Shown one piece after another: positions 44,010 to 51,595 of a stretch of DNA of 64,000 nucleotides. A program made the position numbers and the translations under genes. Numbering within the stretch: the first letter of the stretch is position 1; each line of letters begins with the position of its first letter. Below the pieces are notes generated by a model that was not told the origin of the DNA, ran no database searches, and worked only from the letters and a program-made list of their open reading frames with translations. The stretch is from Alteromonas pelagimontana (GTDB lineage Bacteria > Pseudomonadota > Gammaproteobacteria > Enterobacterales > Alteromonadaceae), in assembly GCF_002499975.2 (NCBI RefSeq), contig NZ_CP052766.1:992001-1056000 (forward strand), in the 5' to 3' direction.

Positions 44010-44546
44010 CTACCAGCTCTTGTGATCGTTCGCCGCTTTTGTCAGATGTACGACTTCAGTCTTTGCCAATCTATCTTGCAATGATTGTTTATGTTTAATA
44101 TCAAACAATACCAGTAATGTGCCCAACCCGCCTAAAGAAGCAAGTAGTCGAATAATTAAACGCTTCCAGGTTACCGGCTCTTCTACCGTACTGAAAATAC
44201 GCAGCCTCCAGGCTCGCATGCCGATAGTTTGGCCGCCATGGCGCCAAAACCACAGAAAGAATCCCACTACCCATATCCCTACCCACACTTGAATTAATGC
44301 CTGGTAGCCGGGCGAGGATTGTATAAGTTCAGAGGGATTTTCAAAGCCACTTGAATCCAAAACCCCGTTGGACAACAAAATGACGATAGTAACAATCATA
44401 ACCATCGCCGCGCACATCCCTACTGCTACTGCCACCAAAGTGTCGTACACCATGGCAAGTAAACGCCGGAAGAAACCGGCACGCCTCTCAACGCGGTTTT
44501 CTTCTTTTGTCGCGGCAACATCTTTTTTCTTCACAGCAACACTCAC
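44010..44546 (-). CDS. RDD family membrane protein
   Basis: Protein of 178 residues with the RDD domain: RRAGFFRRLLAMVYDTLVAVAVG holds the Arg-Asp pair at the first helix, and GGQTIGMRAWRLRI the conserved helix break. Three membrane helices are seen. RDD proteins are often annotated as transport-related; some work in ion exchange, but the role here is unknown. It sits next to lptG as in many gammaproteobacteria. Confidence 0.85.
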   Translation of the reverse strand: MSVAVKKKDVAATKEENRVERRAGFFRRLLAMVYDTLVAVAVGMCAAMVMIVTIVILLSNGVLDSSGFENPSELIQSSPGYQALIQVWVGIWVVGFFLWFWRHGGQTIGMRAWRLRIFSTVEEPVTWKRLIIRLLASLGGLGTLLVLFDIKHKQSLQDRLAKTEVVHLTKAANDHKSW

Positions 44547-44833
44547 TCCACACTAACTGTCTTTTTGGAAACCGTATAGTTTGCCACACTAAGAGCAAAC
44601 GCAAAATCACAATAATCTGCGTATTCTCGTCACTTCTGTTAATGCACAGATGCACTCCCCCCCACCCAGCATTACCTTGAATAATAAATAACCAGTTAAC
44701 CTCAATAATCCCGTAGAAATAGAAAAAATACTTGTAAGCCCCTCTCACAGCGCTATAATGCGGCTCCTGTTGAGGCATATACGCGAATGATTGCGCAATG
44801 TTCTTACAGCGAAGCTTTAATAAGAAAAGTAAT

Positions 44834-44918
44834 GCCAGTGTGATGGAATTGGTAGACATGACGGATTCAAAATCCGTTGCCTTCGGGCGTGGCGGTTCGA
44901 GTCCGCCCACTGGTACCA
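44834..44918 (+). tRNA. tRNA-Leu (anticodon CAA)
   Basis: Sequence of 85 bases that folds as a class II tRNA with a long variable arm. The anticodon stem ACGGA/TCCGT encloses TTCAAAA, giving anticodon CAA. The T-loop GGTTCGAGTCC is standard, the acceptor stem pairs GCCAGTG with CACTGGT (one G-U), and the CCA end is encoded. It reads UUG codons. A copy of its 44866-44891 section is found 4.7 kb away. Confidence 0.97.
44866..44891 (+). repeat. Putative attachment site, left copy (within tRNA-Leu)
   Basis: This 26-base stretch, from the anticodon loop through the variable arm of tRNA-Leu, is repeated exactly at 49548-49573 in the same direction. Site-specific integrases often use tRNA anticodon-loop segments as crossover sites. 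Confidence 0.65.
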
Positions 44919-44943
44919 CTCTTTGCAAGAGATTTTAGCTTCT

Positions 44944-44969
44944 AAACCGACTTTACCATCGGTTTTTTT
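44944..44969 (+). terminator. Terminator of tRNA-Leu
   Basis: AAACCGA and TCGGTTT form a 7-bp stem with an 8-base loop, followed by a run of T. It lies 26 bases past the tRNA. Confidence 0.85.
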
Positions 44970-45007
44970 GTAGCCGGAAATAACCATTATTACGGACTTG
45001 AGTCCGA

Positions 45008-45917
45008 CTACCAGTTCGCCTTTGCCTCACTCATGTATACACGCCAGACAAACCCAATCCCGAAGCTATAAACAATATCCTTCTCGTAAAGAGGACTATC
45101 CTCGTTAGCGGATCCTTGATTGAATTGCACTGATGCCCCCCAAAAAGCCACGCAAATTTTTGACCATCGGAAATGCCAACCCAGCGGAAATTTCGGCGCC
45201 TAAATAACCACCTTTAGCATTGTAGGCTGGCCTGTAATCTGTTGCATACTCTGGCGCAAACTCGTAAAAATAATCGTGCAGCTTTTCTGTACCCCAGGTC
45301 ATCCGTGCCGCAAGGCTGAGTCCGGTATCTGGGAGAAAAACGCCACGTTGTTGATACCTTATTGTCGGTTCAAGTACGTAGCCTCTGCTATTAAGTCCGC
45401 TAAAATCAGTTGAGAACACGGCTCTGGTATGCATACGGGCATTGAGCCTAGCCTTGCCGCCGCCCTCAAACTTAAAGTCTTTTATTTTACATAAAAATTG
45501 CGGGCCTACTTCGAACATGTAGTCGAGCTCCGGCATCCCTTCACGCACACTACCTTCTTCACTTTCTGCTGAAAAAGCGCCACTCACACTCACATCGACT
45601 TCAAGGTTATTCTGTTCGACAAATACGGCGCGGACACCACCTTGCCCTCCAATCCGGAATATATCGCCGCGGTATATGGCATATGGGAGTGCCAATGTAA
45701 CAAGGTACCTCTCGCCGGATGCCGGGTAGTTGGGTACCTCGGCCATGCCGCCGCCAACGCCAACTTCCCAAAGAGGTTGTGTTTCATTGAGCCTTTCAAA
45801 TCCGGTTAAATTACGGTTAGGAGAATCATCTGCACTAACGTCCTCGACTTCTGCCCAAGCGGTTGGACTAATGATTGCTAATGCACTGAAACACATGGTT
45901 AATGTGAATTTATTCAA
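45008..45917 (-). pseudogene. MipA/OmpV-family outer membrane protein, frameshifted at 3' end
   Basis: The main frame (45105-45917) gives 270 residues with a signal peptide (1-22, ending PTAWA) and the MipA/OmpV start: LWEVGVGGGMAEVPNYPASG, then LPYAIYRGDIFRIGGQGG. It stops early at 45105 after FLGGISAIQSRIR. Leaving out one base near 45110-45120 restores the family ending ANEDSPLYEKDIVYSFGIGF and continues to a stop at 45008, with the final beta strand. MipA-type proteins sit in the outer membrane and were linked to murein enzymes and polymyxin or zinc responses in some species. As read, the last strand is lost, so the protein may not assemble. Confidence 0.8.
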
Positions 45918-46558
45918 TAGTTAACCCTCTGAGAATGCCATCTCTAATGAGTGAATCGATAGCACAGATGGATTAATAGATCTTTATACTGGCTTATTTG
46001 TATCAGAGATTTTTGAATTAGAAACGTTGTTGATTTTAATGAGAGCAATTGAATACTAATCGCCTCTGAGGCGGTTCTTTGTCGCGGCGTTTTTTTAATT
46101 GCCCAGTAGGCCAGAACGCCGAAAGACACCTAAAACCACAGTGATGAATTCAATTGTCCGCTGGCGGATGTTTCGCATTCATGGATAAAAAATCTCTTGC
46201 CTTCAAAGACTTGCTGTCCGAGTGGTGGCCCGGCCAAAATCTGGCCTCTGGTACCTTTCTTTTCAAGTCTACAGAAGAGAGAAACATTAAGCCGACAAGA
46301 GCCGTTTTGTTGTGTCTGAACGCTACCTTATTAAGAGCACGCCCAAGGCATGGCGACCGAGTGATCATGAAAAATGCTATTGACCGGCCCCTTCAGCGTA
46401 TGAAAGTGGTAATATACCGCTTAAAGCACATCAGCCAAAGCCCCCTACCACCATGAATCTGGATGATGTCAATGCGCTCCTTCAAGCGCTTTGGGGCAGG
46501 CTTTAAAAAAACCAGCCGTTGGTTGAAGTTGAACGAATGCGTTTTTTATTTGGAATTC
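45918..46558. other. Island interior without a convincing gene
   Basis: 641 bases between the MipA-like gene and selO. One plus-strand frame, 46154-46456 (100 residues, MSAGGCFAFMDKKSLAF...), and an overlapping minus frame are open, but neither has a family I recognise or a good ribosome site. The stretch may hold remains of a lost gene. Low AT-rich patch near 46000. Confidence 0.45.
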
Positions 46559-48262
46559 TTATGAAGAACAACTGTAATGGGATATCCCGCCAACGCCGAA
46601 TAATTCCTGAGGGCGTAACCGGTAGAATTTCTTTTCTACCGCTTCTGATTGTTCCTCAAAAGGTTTGGTCAAGACTTCCTGCATCTCTTTAATAAGTGCA
46701 AAATCCCCATCCTCTGCCTGTTGATAGGCTGGCACTACCAGCCATTCTCGCCAAATATATTTCGGGTTAACTCGCTTCATCCGTTGCGAAATGATGTCAA
46801 TAGAATTGCGGTTATCAATCTGCGTGCGCCACTTTTGAAGCCACTGGTCCCATTGCAGGTTTGATTCATCTGTGGCTTTTTTATAAAAGCTTTTACTGAT
46901 GCTTGTAATGTCATTGGGGATTGTCGAGAGTTCCCGAAAAAAGATGGTGTAGTCGACAGGGGTTTGCGCCATTAACTGTAAAAGCTGAACAGTGAGTTCT
47001 GAATCGTAAGCGGCAAGTCCCAGTTTGGAGGCCCACATCGTTTGCAGCTTCTCTTCCATAACGGCAGGAAAACCTGAACGTATCTCATCGAGCTGAGCTA
47101 AAGCAGTAGGATGTGATTGCAGAACAGGCTGCAATGCCGAACAGAAACTCCCGAAGTTCTTTTCAGCAGCAAATGGCTGGTTAAGGAAAGAAAAATGGCG
47201 ACCACCGCCGGTCCAGGACTGATAGAAAGGATCGAAGCGTTCACAAAAACCGAACGGCCCATAGTCCAACGTAAATCCTCCCCCGGCACAATTATCACTA
47301 TTAAAGTTGCCTTGGCAGTATCCCACACGAATCCAGTCAGCGACTAGTGATGTAAGCCGATCCCGAAACGCCATAGCCAATTGCAATGTTTTTTCTGCAA
47401 TGGGAAGGTCTTCATTTATCTCGATTTTGTACTCTCGCTCGATTAAATGCAAAACAATCATCTCAAGCTCTTTCATTGCGCCAGGATGCGCGTTGCTGCG
47501 AGCACGACGGCCAAACAGTTCCAATTGCCCAACACGCAGAAAAGAAGGCGCAACACGTGTTGATATAGCAACGGGGTTTGACACCATAACTTCCGGATCC
47601 GCCGATTTTGACCCAGGCAAATACCATGGACGTTCAACGCTTTCCGACTCAGAAGTAAACAGGCATAGCGACCGAGAGGTAGGAACGCCAAGCGCGTGCA
47701 TATGCTCTTGCGCCAGAAATTCTCTGACACTTGAGCGCAATACTGCTCTACCATCTGCACCGCGACAATAAGGGGTGCGTCCGGCCCCTTTTAGCTGCAT
47801 TTCCCACCGTTTACCATTAGCAACAACTTCTAGAACGGAAATCGCGCGACCATCTCCATAACCATTGCCGGTTTGAAAAGGACATTGCTGGATGTACTCG
47901 TTACCATAAATTGAGAGCGCATACCCTGTTGCCCAACCAATGGGCCGCATTGGTTCTGGTACATGGGTAACATCACCGGAAAAAAATCGGGCAAAATCAT
48001 TTGTCAGCGCGAGACTGTCATCTACCCCTAATTCGCGAAATAGCTCTTTACTATGAGCAATATATTTAGGATTGCCTATAGGCGTTGGCTTAACAGGGAC
48101 ATAGTGGCCTGAGAAAACCTGGCGCGGGCGGTAGTCCTCACCGGATTGAGTGGCTTCAGGATCAGGGCTGAGAGTATCCAGCAAAGAGTAATCTGCTAAC
48201 TTAGCAAGATCATCAAACCTGAATATTTTTGTAGGAAAATCATTAGTTTTTAAATTAGCCAT
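46559..48262 (-). CDS. selO: Protein adenylyltransferase SelO (YdiU)
   Basis: Pseudokinase-fold enzyme of 567 residues that transfers AMP to Ser, Thr or Tyr of proteins; in E. coli it supports oxidative stress resistance. The [36 protein letters not shown] region has the inverted nucleotide-binding Lys/Arg/Glu residues, [22 protein letters not shown] is the catalytic and metal-binding loop (Asp-Asn, DYGP), and the C-terminal SCSS holds the Cys that is selenocysteine in animals. It lies inside the tRNA-Leu island, which is unusual for a gene normally kept in the core genome; it could be an added or moved copy. Confidence 0.93.
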
Positions 48263-48635
48263 GTGCTTAAAAGGCCCTTTTGTCGCTTAGGTTCTAGCGA
48301 TATTTTCGGTAAATGAGGCTTGCGCCAGGAAACGGTCGCAGCAACGTGCCGCGTTCACTTGTGTAAAGCCGTTCTATATAGCTGCAATACGAGGAAAGCT
48401 GACTGAAAGTTCTTGGTCTTTTTGTCAGCACGATGAGAGCACGGCACCAGCACAAGTATCTGGCTCTGTCAAAACAACAGTTAAAAGATGCCGATGATCG
48501 CGCCACATTAAAACAAATTATATAAGCAACGGGTTCGGGAGTTCGATTTCTTTGCATGATTCGGAATATAGAAAAGCCGGATTAGGTTTTCTTGCTAGAT
48601 ACCTCTATTTGGCCAAGATTAAATTTAAGCCACTA
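48263..48635. other. Gap between selO and the IS element
   Basis: 373 bases with only short open frames (for example 48294-48557 minus). I recognise no domain, tRNA or clear hairpin. It must contain the selO promoter. Confidence 0.5.
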
Positions 48636-49514
48636 GAGTCTGTTGATCTTTGCTGTACATATTTTATTCAGCATACATCGGTAACCACATCATAATAAAA
48701 GCCAGAGATACCATCGAATGGTAGTTTCTGGCTAGTTTTTCATATCTCGTCGCAATGGCCCGATATTTTTTCACTTTCAAAAATGCATTTTCAACAAGGT
48801 GGCGATATTTGTATAGACACCAGTCCATATGCGCATTACCACGCTTTTTATTCGCCTTTCTCGGGATGTTAGATACTGTACCTGTTGCCTCAATGGTCTC
48901 TCTCAAACCATCACTGTCATACCCCTTGTCTGCCACAATTATTTCGGCTGCCGGCGAGTTGAACACTAATGACTCGGCAAAGCGTACGTCATGCGCTTGC
49001 CCACCCGATAATTCAAAATAGACAGGTAATCCTCCACTATCCACTGCTAAGTGGATTTTCGTCGAGTTCCCGCCCCGGCTTTTGCCTATCGCTTCATCAT
49101 GATCACTCGCAGCACCGCACCCGTGTTGATGTGTTTTAACGATACTGCCATCGAGAAACAGCCATTGGGTATCACTGTCGCGGCTTAATATTTCAAACAT
49201 ATAGGCCAACACACCCTTTTTCGACCATAAATTGAATCGCCGGAAGATGGCGCTCCAATCACCAAACTCTGAGGGTAAGTCACGCCATGGAATACCTGTT
49301 CTCATACGATAAAGTATTCCTTCAAATGTCATTCTGTGTTCCGGCTTTGAATAGACTCGGCCACTCAAATACATTACGCGGGATAGCATCGCCCATTGGG
49401 CATCTGTTAACATAGTTCTCGGCATGTTGATTTCGGTATTGTTTGTTTTTGGCGAAATGGATTATACCAGTCTTCATGCCGTTTATTTTTTATACCACAA
49501 AGATCAACACGCTC
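48636..49514 (-). mobile_element. IS5-family insertion sequence (IS427/IS1031-like)
   Basis: About 879 bp with imperfect inverted ends: left GAG-NN-TGTTGATCTTTG and right its complement CAAAGATCAACA-NN-CTC, 12 of the inner bases identical. TA flanks both ends (CTA|GAG and CTC|TAA), consistent with the short TA-type target duplication of this group. It carries one intact transposase gene. Size is normal for the group, so it may still be active. Confidence 0.88.
48664..49425 (-). CDS. IS5-family transposase
   Basis: DDE transposase of 253 residues. The N-terminal DUF4096-like domain (MPRTMLTDAQWAML...TGIPWRDLPSEFGDW) is followed by the catalytic core: Asp92 (LDGSIVK), Asp166 (VADKGYDSD) and Glu212 (RHLVENAFLKVKKYRAIATRYEK). 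The DDE triad and the K/R signature are intact, with no frameshift, so the enzyme should be active. It is carried by one complete element at the right edge of the tRNA-Leu island. Confidence 0.95.
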   Translation of the reverse strand: MPRTMLTDAQWAMLSRVMYLSGRVYSKPEHRMTFEGILYRMRTGIPWRDLPSEFGDWSAIFRRFNLWSKKGVLAYMFEILSRDSDTQWLFLDGSIVKTHQHGCGAASDHDEAIGKSRGGNSTKIHLAVDSGGLPVYFELSGGQAHDVRFAESLVFNSPAAEIIVADKGYDSDGLRETIEATGTVSNIPRKANKKRGNAHMDWCLYKYRHLVENAFLKVKKYRAIATRYEKLARNYHSMVSLAFIMMWLPMYAE

Positions 49515-49547
49515 TAATTTTAACATGGAAAAAATTTACACTATCTT

Positions 49548-49573
49548 TTCAAAATCCGTTGCCTTCGGGCGTG
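49548..49573 (+). repeat. Putative attachment site, right copy (tRNA-Leu remnant)
   Basis: Exact 26-base copy of tRNA-Leu 44866-44891. The following 25 bases keep partial likeness to the tRNA 3' end (AGCCCGCTGGTGCA against CGCCCACTGGTACC), as expected for a decaying tRNA fragment. It lies 33 bases past the IS end. Confidence 0.65.
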
Positions 49574-49705
49574 TAGGACCGTTAAGCCCGCTGGTGCATT
49601 CTTCTTTAAAAAGCACTTTACATCGATGGAAGTCTGTCGCTGCCCCCGTCAGTGGAACAGAAGTGCAGATGTGCCGGCGCGTCTGTTTAACGCGCCGAAC
49701 GAACT

Positions 49706-51595
49706 TTAGGCATGCCTTGGACTTATTTTAAATTGTTGCACCACGCTTTGTAACTCCGTAGCCAATTGCGCCAATGAATTACTGGTTTCCAGAGTTTGAG
49801 AGGCCGCTTCTGTAGAAGACTTTGCGATGTCGTTGATATTAACGATATTGCAATTGATTTCTTCGGAAACGATTTTTTGTTCGTCTGCGGCACTGGCAAT
49901 CATGTAATTTTTTTCACTAATGGCTGATACCGCAAGGGTAATTTGTTCAAGCGCATGACCAGCTATATCTGCTTTTTCCACGCCGCTATCTGCCAGGTGG
50001 CGGCTTTGCTGCATAATCTGTACGGCAGACCCGGTTTTTTGCTGTAAACGCTCAATGATAGTTCTAATTTGATCTGTGGAGTCATGACTCCGCGATGCCA
50101 GCGTACGCACTTCGTCGGCGACCACTGCGAAACCTCGTCCCTGTTCACCGGCTCTGGCCGCTTCGATCGCCGCATTAAGGGCAAGCAAATTAGTCTGCTC
50201 GGCAATTTCGCTAATCACCTGAAGTACCGTAGAGATGTTCGCAGCCTCATCCTTTAGCGCATTTATCTCCTGAGCCGTTTTTTCTACCTGTTGCGCTAGC
50301 TCGCGGATGCCGTTGACTGCATCATTTACCAACTGAGTCCCTTTCTTTGACTCGGTGTCTGCTTGTTTAGACGCAGCAGCGGCTTCTGAAGCCGAGTGAG
50401 AAACATCTTGTACGGTGGTTGTCATTTCATTCATTGCCGTTGCCACCGACTCGGTTTCGTGTTGCTGCCGATTGACGCCGTCACGGGTACTCGCCGTAAT
50501 AACGCTCAGTTCTTCAGCGGCGCTACTTAACATGGTAGTAGACTGATACACCTCATACATTGACTCTTCAAACCGTTCAAGCATTTGATTAAGCGCTTTA
50601 CCAACAGCGTTAATTTCATCTGCCCCATCATACTTATAGCGCTGAGAAAGGTCCTTATTATCACTGATATTTTGCATCAGACCGGCTAAGTATTTAACGG
50701 GCTTGGAGATGCTAAGGGATACAAAAACAATTACTATAACAATTAATATGACGGCCAACGCGCTTATTAATGTCGAGAAAAAATTGGTCGCAGCGCGGTA
50801 TTCATCTATCTGTGTGGTGACCTGTTCTGATAACTCAGTCAAAATTGATTCTGTAGCATGAACCGTACGCCTTACCTCCCCAATCAATCCTTGATCGCTG
50901 GTTAATCCAAGTACATTCTGACCTTCAACAAAGGCGTGGAAGTGACGCTGATAGTCATTCATCAGGCTCGCAATTTGACTGCTAGCCAGTGCGGAAAGAT
51001 TACTTTGACGCAAGGTTGTGTTGAAATCCGCAAAGGCATCATCAAAGCTCGCTTTGTATTTCATATCCTCGCGCAGCATAAAGTCCTTTTCATGGCGTCT
51101 GAGCATCAGCATGTCAGCTTCTAGCGCGGTATTCCCGAGTTGATTTACCTGATCTTCGACATTCCGTACAGCGTCTCGCAGGGTGCCGTAAATTCCTGCC
51201 TCCGGTGTCAGACCAAGCGCAATGTTCTTTGCCACAAAGACATTAAACGTTTTCTTATACTCAGCTAAAATCGCTTTTAACTGGCTGGCTTCATGTGCTC
51301 CGAAACCAGCGCGCTGTAATCCCTGTTGCAGCGTGTTTACCTCAGATACCAGCGAATCATAGTCGGCGTTAAAGTCTTCTTGATAATCAAGGTCCTGTCG
51401 CAGGAGAAAATCTTTCTCATCACGTCTGAGGGACAACATTCCATTATTGACTTTATAGATACCGACTTCGAGAAGACTAAGGTTACTCAGCTTTGCTCCT
51501 GTCACGTTCTGTAACAGTGTCATACCCACCATACCCGTAAAAACAAGCGCGCTAATTAATATAAGTTTGTTGCGAATACTAGACAAACTGATCAT
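49706..51595 (-). CDS. Methyl-accepting chemotaxis protein with HBM sensor
   Basis: Chemoreceptor of 629 residues. Membrane helices at 10-28 and 275-298 flank a periplasmic sensor built of two similar helical modules; [20 protein letters not shown] and [20 protein letters not shown] are matching pieces, the mark of the helical bimodular (HBM) domain that binds organic acids in known cases. HAMP (about 299-350) and the signalling domain follow with the intact tip [32 protein letters not shown]. No pentapeptide CheR tether is present. It may sense a TCA-type acid, but this is family inference. Confidence 0.93.

Follow-up and report, generated by a model that had tools for sequence, protein, structure and literature searches.

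How did part of a tRNA-Leu(CAA) gene come to be repeated exactly, 4.6 kb away from the intact gene, on the far side of two protein-coding genes and an insertion sequence? The locus lies within the window, the whole stretch of 64,000 nucleotides that was analysed in this marine Alteromonas genome, and the sequence-only reading of it had proposed a single integrated element that entered at the anticodon loop and was later trimmed by loss of its integrase. In the present work, we have compared this locus with those of other Alteromonas species, each represented by one genome. Our analyses indicate that the repeat is the mark of integration into a specific site of Alteromonas, the anticodon loop of tRNA-Leu(CAA), and that the segment consists of two tandem relic units (viz. 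mipA with a first tRNA fragment, and selO with a second), not of one trimmed island.

The tRNA-Leu(CAA) target and its repeat

ARAGORN predicts a single tRNA in the window, an intact tRNA-Leu(CAA) gene on the forward strand (44834..44918), which is the target and whose allele is equal letter for letter to that of G044. A 26-mer within this gene (44866-44891) recurs exactly at 49548-49573, as had been reported, where dinucleotide shuffles of the window give an expectation of 0, and the 20-nt core of the repeat has exactly 2 copies in the whole 4.3-Mb genome (G000), both at these sites. With the intact tRNA at one end and its 3' part repeated directly at the other, and with content that differs among congeners at the same locus, the segment has the layout of a tRNA-targeted island. 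The sequence-only reading was right to place the attachment site in the anticodon loop, and the 7-bp overlap is probably the loop itself, TTCAAAA (44866-44872). A sequence seen by eye upstream of the tRNA (TTGTAA..TATAAT; 44733..44759, forward strand), which resembles the pre-tRNA sequence of congeners of the same class, may be a functional promoter. No relic of a tRNA 5'-half is present upstream of the window tRNA: the best ungapped match in the 274 bases upstream is 15/39, and shuffled controls gave a mean of 17.8 and a maximum of 23.

Two relic units behind the tRNA gene

The cargo of the first unit is a mipA/ompV-like gene on the reverse strand (45011..45917; PF06629). Close to the C terminus its frame is interrupted, since one frame matches residues 1-260 of the G003 protein and another matches residues 246-302, so that the earlier description of it as a frameshifted gene holds. 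The DNA from 44965 to 46315 aligns at 76.6% over 1352 columns with the block behind the tRNA-Leu of G003, where the order is tRNA, mipA, decayed fragment. Part of what had been left as unassigned DNA between the repeats proved to be a second decayed tRNA-Leu 3'-half, carrying a T-loop insert and the remains of the tRNA terminator (fragment 1; 46186..46315, forward strand). It was found by nhmmer using a profile built without the window (46189-46315, E = 2.8e-17), and its first three bases, from 46186, are extrapolated from the start of the profile. It is from this second 3'-half that the presence of two relic units follows. No recombination arm of the kind described below is detectable before fragment 1 (arm score -28.0 bits).

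The second unit carries, on the reverse strand, a selO-like gene belonging to the second SelO type of the genus (46559..48262), correctly named in the earlier reading (PF02696), which is in a single frame and compares with that of G022 at 66.8%. It ends in fragment 2, a displaced tRNA-Leu 3'-half recognized by both the exact repeat and the profile (49548..49596, forward strand), in which the core TTCAAAA (49548-49554) begins the exact repeat and a degenerate T arm and acceptor end come after it. The weakly conserved tRNA 3' end that had been noticed there is supported by a profile of congener fragments (49548-49596, E = 5.9e-5); the pooled fragment search, at E <= 1e-3, does not contain it. 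Directly before fragment 2, a matrix scan locates 31 nt (49517..49547, forward strand) of the arm that stands ahead of displaced 3'-halves in congeners. They rank first among about 127,900 sites when 24 arms make up the matrix and fourth among 127,940 when 37 do, and the 21-mer of arm and core at this place is the only match in G000 with up to 2 mismatches. The IS5-family element (48636..49514, reverse strand) is confirmed by an IS4/5-type transposase (48664-49425) and has TA on both sides and terminal inverted repeats that match at 19/25 positions; what had been overlooked is that it splits the arm. The other end of the arm, left of the IS (~48623-48635), is a weak match scored at the best of 25 offsets, and its score is reached at 363 of 127,970 sites.

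A gene for a methyl-accepting chemotaxis protein forms the right flank (49706..51595, reverse strand; ORF domain scan), and no match to it at E <= 1e-100 was obtained in 58 other Alteromonas genomes, where scoring covered up to 21 candidates per genome. Nine ORFs from 44010 to 51595 were scanned, and apart from the IS transposase they include no recombinase, in agreement with the absence of an integrase reported before, and the segment therefore lacks the integrase of its own that defines a self-mobile integrative element.

Displaced tRNA halves and recombinases in other Alteromonas genomes

Displaced tRNA-Leu 3'-halves are found in 29 of the 57 Alteromonas genomes read, G000 included. A conserved 45-nt arm precedes 38 of the 46 fragments (score >= 10 bits against a matrix that excludes identical arms), 44 of which lie outside the window, though arms from related species are non-independent samples; the other 8 fragments score below 10 bits, and 5 of 127,912 window positions reach this score, fragment 2 being one. 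Exactly TTCAAAA starts 39 of the 46 fragments, whose anchor point had been shifted to any TTCAAAA close by. When the pattern was scanned across the family, 12 of 295 genomes had a match and the reversed control pattern had one in 4 of 295, so that the evidence for spread is modest. Nine loci were read besides that of the window, and five of them run into a tRNA-Leu 3'-half up to the CCA end (L129 in Alteromonas; L131, L132, L134, and L135 in other genera), this continuation being absent or partial in the remaining four. The 21-mer of arm and core had 0 matches in viral_contigs.

As far as the contigs allow placement, a tyrosine recombinase of a 428-450 aa family (c5) is located inside the tRNA-Leu islands of eight genomes (viz. 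G004, G005, G019, G043, G047, G051, G052, and G055), joined in several congener islands by a second recombinase (c32), and broken copies of c5 are present in those of G054 and G060. The search for integrases at the same tRNA in relatives, which the sequence-only reading had suggested, was thus positive. The islands of G047, G054, and G060 had been candidates for integrase-free islands and were rejected as such, their c5 proteins being tyrosine recombinases that the PF00589 model misses; for the first 24 genomes, PF00589 matches were covered up to E ~4e-16, and weaker ones are possible. PF00589 has 9 matches in G000, which is therefore not free of recombinases, and none of the 5 listed is near the window; relatives of c5 or c32 are absent from this genome at E <= 1e-30. 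No NCBIfam model scores c5 above its cut-off, and a phage search with c32 returned 131 records, all below 60% identity.

Some of the insertions at this tRNA are small cassettes without a recombinase that are nearly identical in distant species. One of 2.9 kb is 99.2% identical in two species (G010 and G066), whose alignable flank is 68.0% identical, and two further pairs show 95.5% for the cassette vs. 70.2% for alignable flank or core (G010 and G041) and 97.1% vs. 77.3% (G040 and G067). Certain small cassettes hold toxin-antitoxin pairs; the toxin-antitoxin/TPR cassette of G066, searched against plasmids, gave no match. In G004, G019, G051, and G052, and not in the window, a 5'-half is left behind and a complete tRNA is carried on the element. 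Joining 5'-halves to 3'-halves gave a perfect tRNA-Leu(CAA) in all five pairs, the stretch shared being TTCAAAA for each of the five 5'-halves, and in three the rebuilt tRNA differs from the functional, island-borne allele. Judged from these sequences, the larger congener islands appear to bring a replacement tRNA, and small cassettes without their own recombinase appear to use the same site.

Origin of the segment

We consider it likely that the segment as a whole is what remains of two insertions that entered tRNA-Leu(CAA) site-specifically, at its anticodon loop, and were probably driven by c5, with the units moved in trans. Strand exchange would occur within the 7-bp loop TTCAAAA, catalysed by a tyrosine recombinase, c5 being the most probable cognate enzyme. 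The incoming circle would consist of arm, TTCAAAA, tRNA 3'-half and cargo, and its insertion would rebuild the tRNA at the left end and move the old 3'-half to the right end, behind the arm. Repetition of this event would yield an array of tRNA, cargo, 3'-half, cargo and 3'-half, in which mipA would be the cargo of unit 1 and selO that of unit 2, the small units lacking a recombinase and relying on one provided in trans. At present the array is immobile, since the genome contains no relative of c5 or c32, fragment 1 is decayed and the arm of fragment 2 is interrupted by the IS. Its arrangement is old, judging by the values for the two genes: mipA matches its relative at 82.0%, a little above the 75.6% of the core, and selO at 69.9%, near the core value of 70.8%.

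Several points count against this model: fragment 1 has no recognizable arm, 8 of 46 fragments fall below 10 bits, the larger matrix ranks the window arm fourth and not first, the fragments were re-anchored and the arms are non-independent, G000 has PF00589 matches of its own, and selO may be resident. No empty site, with 44919 joined to the DNA after 49600, and no circular form was seen.

The earlier proposal of a single conventional integrative island whose own integrase was later deleted is possible, though somewhat doubtful. Congener islands at this tRNA do carry c5, several also c32, and broken c5 copies are present in G054 and G060. The anticodon-loop site and the displaced 3'-half of that proposal stand; however, two fragments are present instead of one, and the form of it that allows one island only was rejected when the profile search revealed the second. 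Since near-identical recombinase-less cassettes are common to different species at the tRNA-Leu site, a missing integrase, as among the nine ORFs scanned here, need not mean loss.

It is unlikely that mipA and selO are resident genes, with the fragments derived from other insertions and the order produced by inversion or by homologous recombination between tRNA copies. SelO of this type occurs in many congeners, and selO may for this reason have been resident and drawn into a rearrangement; in ten of them it is located, by coordinates, 17-100 kb downstream of the same tRNA and on the strand of the tRNA, opposite to that in the window. In addition, selO is as divergent as lptG, mipA is closer than the core by a small margin only, and mipA is found to the right of the fragments in G004 and G022. 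Against this, the window shares blocks in the same order with two congeners: G022 (tRNA, UvrA-like ATPase, selO on the reverse strand, arm, 3'-half) likewise has selO between the tRNA and an arm with a 3'-half, and G003 likewise has mipA between the tRNA and a decayed fragment.

That the fragments represent trailer repeats of the kind seen in some tRNA operons, with no link to integration, is very improbable. Trailer units with tRNA 3'-end sequence do lie within 600 bases of the tRNA in 18 of 57 genomes, and they have in common the T-loop insert seen in fragment 1. However, these units start at profile position 15 or later and thus lack the anticodon-loop part, which both window fragments retain, or retain as a relic, and fragment 2 has an arm and sits 4.6 kb away. 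Rfam gave no match for the window fragments, the trailer region L116 matching only below the curated cut-off, and folding of the trailer-unit consensus gave 4 pairs and no covariation.

A chance repeat was rejected as virtually impossible on the shuffle expectation and the genome-wide count of the core, and the break point recurs across the genus.

Relation to known systems and significance

CIMEs (cis-mobilizable elements) are flanked by attL and attR, lack a recombinase and accrete at one att site. The segment likewise has att sites at both ends and no recombinase, its arm now being split by the IS, and the cassettes of other species suggest CIME-like mobilization by a related element. Integron cassettes are also small, and a tyrosine recombinase brings them into a single anchored site. 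Some of them, like those at tRNA-Leu, hold toxin-antitoxin pairs; here, in contrast, the site is a tRNA gene and no integron integrase model scores above its cut-off (75.7 bits for c32, against a cut-off of 265).

Islands at tRNA-Leu in Alteromonas have been published: in A. australica H17, GI5 has the last 52 nt of its tRNA-Leu directly repeated at the far end, and fGI1 grows by addition of cassettes at a tRNA (PMC4119200). The additive fGIs described there share with the window the genus, a single Leu-tRNA target and the far-end tRNA repeat, whereas the window units are small and decayed. The window is an old relic of a known kind. The part of that account available to us makes no mention of the conserved arm, the 7-bp overlap, 5'-halves, transfer of recombinase-less tRNA-Leu cassettes, or a carried tRNA and its exchange, and to this extent the system behind the window is a variant that is new. 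As described in part of PMC3146451, 16 of 31 ssrA-specific islands of Dehalococcoides carry an integration module; like the units here they stand in tandem behind one RNA gene, each bounded by a fragment of that gene and with a conserved motif next to the repeat, but they target the T-loop of the tmRNA gene and use serine recombinases. In the tRNA-dependent lysogeny of mycobacteriophages, a short core lies within the tRNA, the tRNA is split and the element supplies a complete one of the same isotype; phage Gaia, for instance, uses a core of 8 bp in tRNA-Leu(CAA) and brings its own gene for this tRNA (PMC10865867). This resembles the 5'-half islands of G004, G019, G051, and G052, which may or may not be phages, and not the window. 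Tycheposons, as defined in the portion of PMC10872708 at hand, have a tRNA at the border and a tyrosine recombinase, which the window unit lacks. A literature search on islands carrying an intact tRNA gave no match.

These comparisons make it plausible, at what we judge to be about even chances, that Alteromonadaceae keep a tRNA-anchored system in which a single tyrosine recombinase family, c5, moves many small recombinase-less cassettes into and out of the tRNA-Leu(CAA) anticodon loop, across species, by means of the 45-nt arm, and the larger c5 islands swap the tRNA allele of the host, the window being its fossil. If cassettes without a recombinase do cross species via the arm and the 7-bp loop, genomic islands and integrons would stand less far apart, and part of the island DNA that lies at tRNA genes without an integrase could be explained as mobile and not broken. 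The tRNA swap would likewise represent a route for exchanging a translation gene between species.

The 26-bp Repeat and Its Target tRNA

The 26-bp exact repeat from which the sequence-only reading had inferred a tRNA-Leu(CAA) island is borne out by our analyses: exact copies are located at 44866-44891 and 49548-49573, the number expected in shuffled sequence is 0, and a 20-nt core recurs exactly at these 2 sites only in the 4,314,189-base genome (G000), not at many unrelated loci. The first copy is housed in the sole tRNA gene of the window, tRNA-Leu(CAA) (44834-44918), and starts at base 1 of the anticodon loop, TTCAAAA; the 2 remaining tRNA-Leu-like matches in the genome are UAA and CAG. The features described between the repeats were likewise recovered, namely a gene of the MipA family whose frame is broken close to its end, one of the SelO family, and an element of IS4/5 type. 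The nearest named relatives retrieved with LptG are from Alteromonas. The spacing from the RDD gene to the tRNA is 287 bases in the window; in several congeners (L033:1923-7733, L047, L048, and others) this interval holds a gene cluster encoding a TonB receptor, a sigma factor, an anti-sigma factor, and DUF4331, cadherin-like and HupE proteins.

Displaced tRNA 3'-Halves and the Conserved Arm

The tRNA was used as a query against 59 Alteromonas genomes, and the partial copies among the matches listed are of two sorts, which either start at tRNA position 33 or end at about position 40. Loci were read in 57 genomes, including G000 and leaving out G023 and G059. An intact tRNA-Leu(CAA) was identified by ARAGORN in the loci of 54 of these 57 genomes, the exceptions being G005, G020, and G064; the loci read from G005 (L037, L038) and G064 (L108, L109) contain halves only, which draft gaps may explain. 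A profile built from 12 displaced 3'-halves, with the window excluded, detected 3'-halves in 29 of the 57 genomes, G000 among them. The resulting set of 46 fragments (44 outside the window) was obtained after one duplicate row was dropped and the window fragment at 49548-49596 (fragment 2) was added by hand. An exact TTCAAAA start is shared by 39 of the 46 fragments and a 45-nt arm scoring at least 10 bits precedes 38 (identical arms kept out of the matrix), counts that are not readable as a probability because a nearby TTCAAAA, where one exists, was used to re-anchor the fragment and because related species do not provide independent arms. The same score is reached at 5 of 127,912 window positions, including fragment 2 at 10.8 bits.

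At least one trailer unit is present within 600 bases after tRNA-Leu(CAA) in 18 of the 57 genomes (e.g., L116:1742-1982, L051:14387-14566, and L110:1566-1797). These units consist of an insert like TCCGAGTGTCGGCCCA, a tRNA 3' end including CCA and, in the majority, a terminator; a search for covariation within the unit found none, and many displaced 3'-halves have the TCCGAGTGTCGGCCCA type of insert in their T-loop as well. On contig C40 of G047 (L127:265-503), a tRNA-Leu 3'-half lies ~80 bp after a tRNA-Phe gene, with an arm-like stretch carrying TTCAAAA 1.1 kb past it, and this locus is possibly a second site.

Two Relic Units in the Window

The profile built without the window also gave a match at 46189-46315 (E = 2.8e-17). 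This is fragment 1 (46186-46315), a decayed 3'-half that has kept a T-loop insert and the remains of a terminator. The stretch 44965-46315 is 76.6% identical over 1,352 aligned columns to G003, in which mipA and a decayed fragment are likewise found behind the tRNA, and the window selO and the surroundings of fragment 2 are alignable with G022, where the order is tRNA, UvrA-like ATPase, selO on the minus strand, arm, and 3'-half. The ATPase-selO block of G046 is 93.3% identical to that of G022, and no 3'-half was detected there. On account of the second fragment and these alignments, we conclude that the window contains two relic units, one of mipA with fragment 1 and the other of selO with fragment 2. 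The earlier interpretation as an integrated island is correct as to the kind of element, though not complete. Under a matrix of 24 arms, the 31 nt that lead up to fragment 2 are the top-scoring of about 127,900 sites; under one of 37 arms they come fourth of 127,940. This arm is interrupted by the IS (48636-49514), and its other part, left of the IS, is a weak match equalled or exceeded at 363 of 127,970 sites; the arm matrix found no arm before fragment 1.

Two Classes of Islands and Exchange of the tRNA

The islands fall into two classes. In the first, cargo, arm, and displaced 3'-half come in this order after an intact tRNA; in the second, a tRNA 5'-half lies about 115-130 bp ahead of the intact tRNA and a 3'-half at the far end. 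The window is of the first class, since no 5'-half was found in the region upstream of its tRNA. Five half-pairs of the second class (G004, G019, G051, G052, and, across two contigs, G005) were joined. The 5'-half extends through TTCAAAA in all 5, and every joined tRNA is identified by ARAGORN as Leu(CAA) and matches letter for letter an intact allele found in one or other genome of the set. The joined tRNA differs from the genome's own functional tRNA in G019, G051, and G052 and is the same in G004; the loci read from G005 lack an intact copy. Hence, these larger islands split the host tRNA and bring their own complete copy (L035/L036, L048/L049, L089/L090, and L091/L092), the functional allele differing from the one rebuilt of the halves in 3 of these 4 islands. 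The shared 7 bp, TTCAAAA, make up the entire anticodon loop and agree with the 6-8 bp overlap of tyrosine recombinases. The shared backbone of the larger islands (L073:9959-15879) encodes a Mrr-type nuclease, a NYN/LOTUS protein, DUF2787, DUF6641, the c32 recombinase, and an AAA ATPase that somewhat resembles IetA (score below the NCBIfam cut-off).

Recombinases of the Larger Islands

The search for integrases at the same tRNA in relatives, proposed with the sequence-only reading, was positive: two recombinases, c32 and c5, lie in the larger islands. The c32 proteins are XerC/D-like (PF00589). The c5 proteins (428-450 aa; e.g., L084:11715-13001), a tyrosine recombinase family of tRNA-Leu islands, are matched by PHROGs as integrase (E = 1.7e-26 and 3.8e-32), and site-specific or tyrosine-type integrase is the annotation of their named homologs; scans of two members gave no Pfam match at E ≤ 1e-3 (L049) and no NCBIfam match over the cut-off. 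Relatives of c5 (E ≤ 1e-30) are present in 23 of 59 genomes and those of c32 in 15 of 59. To the extent that the contigs show it, c5 copies of at least 78% identity are placed inside the tRNA-Leu islands of G004, G043, G047, G051, G052, and G060 (split); that of G055 shares a contig with a tRNA 3'-half, and the G054 island has a pseudogene. More distant copies occur in the islands of G005 (56%) and G019 (53%), and others are found elsewhere, on a contig unlinked to the tRNA-Leu site (G064), or are broken (G003, G008, and G023). Neither c5 (E ≤ 1e-30) nor c32 relatives were found in G000, which has 9 PF00589 matches, the 5 listed being far from the window, and 12 of the 29 fragment-bearing genomes have no c5 relative at E ≤ 1e-30.

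Recombinase-Less Cassettes Shared Between Species

G010 and G066 share a cassette that encodes a ParE/Phd-type toxin-antitoxin pair and a TPR protein, with 99.2% identity over 2,855 bases of G010; of the 1,500 bases upstream, 706 are alignable, at 68.0% identity. At the right end, identity ceases just past TTCAAAA, and the remaining 3'-half is a different allele in each host. The same cassette of G010 is 95.5% identical to that of each of G041, G053, and G058, their lptG-RDD DNA being about 70% identical to that of G010. G040 and G067 have a transglutaminase cassette in common at 97.1% identity (core 77.3%). Between G049 and G047, a 10.9 kb metal-efflux cassette, of which 2 genes were named (one for cation efflux, one for an outer-membrane efflux protein), shows 96.8% identity; the DNA upstream of the tRNAs of these two genomes is not alignable. 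The islands of 14 genomes gave no PF00589 hit among the matches listed, with a model that misses c5. Homologous recombination is an unlikely vehicle between such unlike flanks, and we therefore infer that a recombinase was supplied in trans.

Age and Origin of the Window Units

The window mipA is 82.0% identical to that of G003 (core 75.6%) and selO 69.9% identical to that of G022 (lptG 70.8%). Neither is clearly closer to its relatives than the core, and the units are therefore old, or inherited. SelO of the window type is present in many congeners and, as read from coordinates, lies 17-100 kb downstream of tRNA-Leu(CAA), on the tRNA strand, in ten; hence, the window selO may have been resident before it was captured or inverted. 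Two SelO types are found in the genus, and the G000 genes are at C1:1038676-1040106 and 2381165-2382493; the second type, to which the window gene at 1038676-1040106 belongs, is patchy and in several congeners lies downstream of tRNA-Leu(CAA). To the right of the island, the gene for a methyl-accepting chemotaxis protein (MCP, 49706-51595) was unmatched at E ≤ 1e-100 in 58 further genomes of Alteromonas (up to 21 candidates scored in each), so that an empty site was not demonstrable.

Relation to Known Elements

Passages of earlier reports describe islands bounded by tRNA repeats (PMC10872708; PMC7771536). The closest system is that of the Dehalococcoides ssrA islands, 31 in number, 16 with an integration module, and with a motif beside the repeat (PMC3146451), and the nearest relative of the 5'-half class is tRNA-dependent lysogeny (PMC10865867). 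For Alteromonas, the passages cited here mention neither the 45-nt arm nor the exact 7-bp overlap, and neither transfer without a recombinase nor the tRNA swap, the subscription literature being mostly outside the search. The window itself is a worn member of an already known kind of element, and the system behind it is a new form of that kind.
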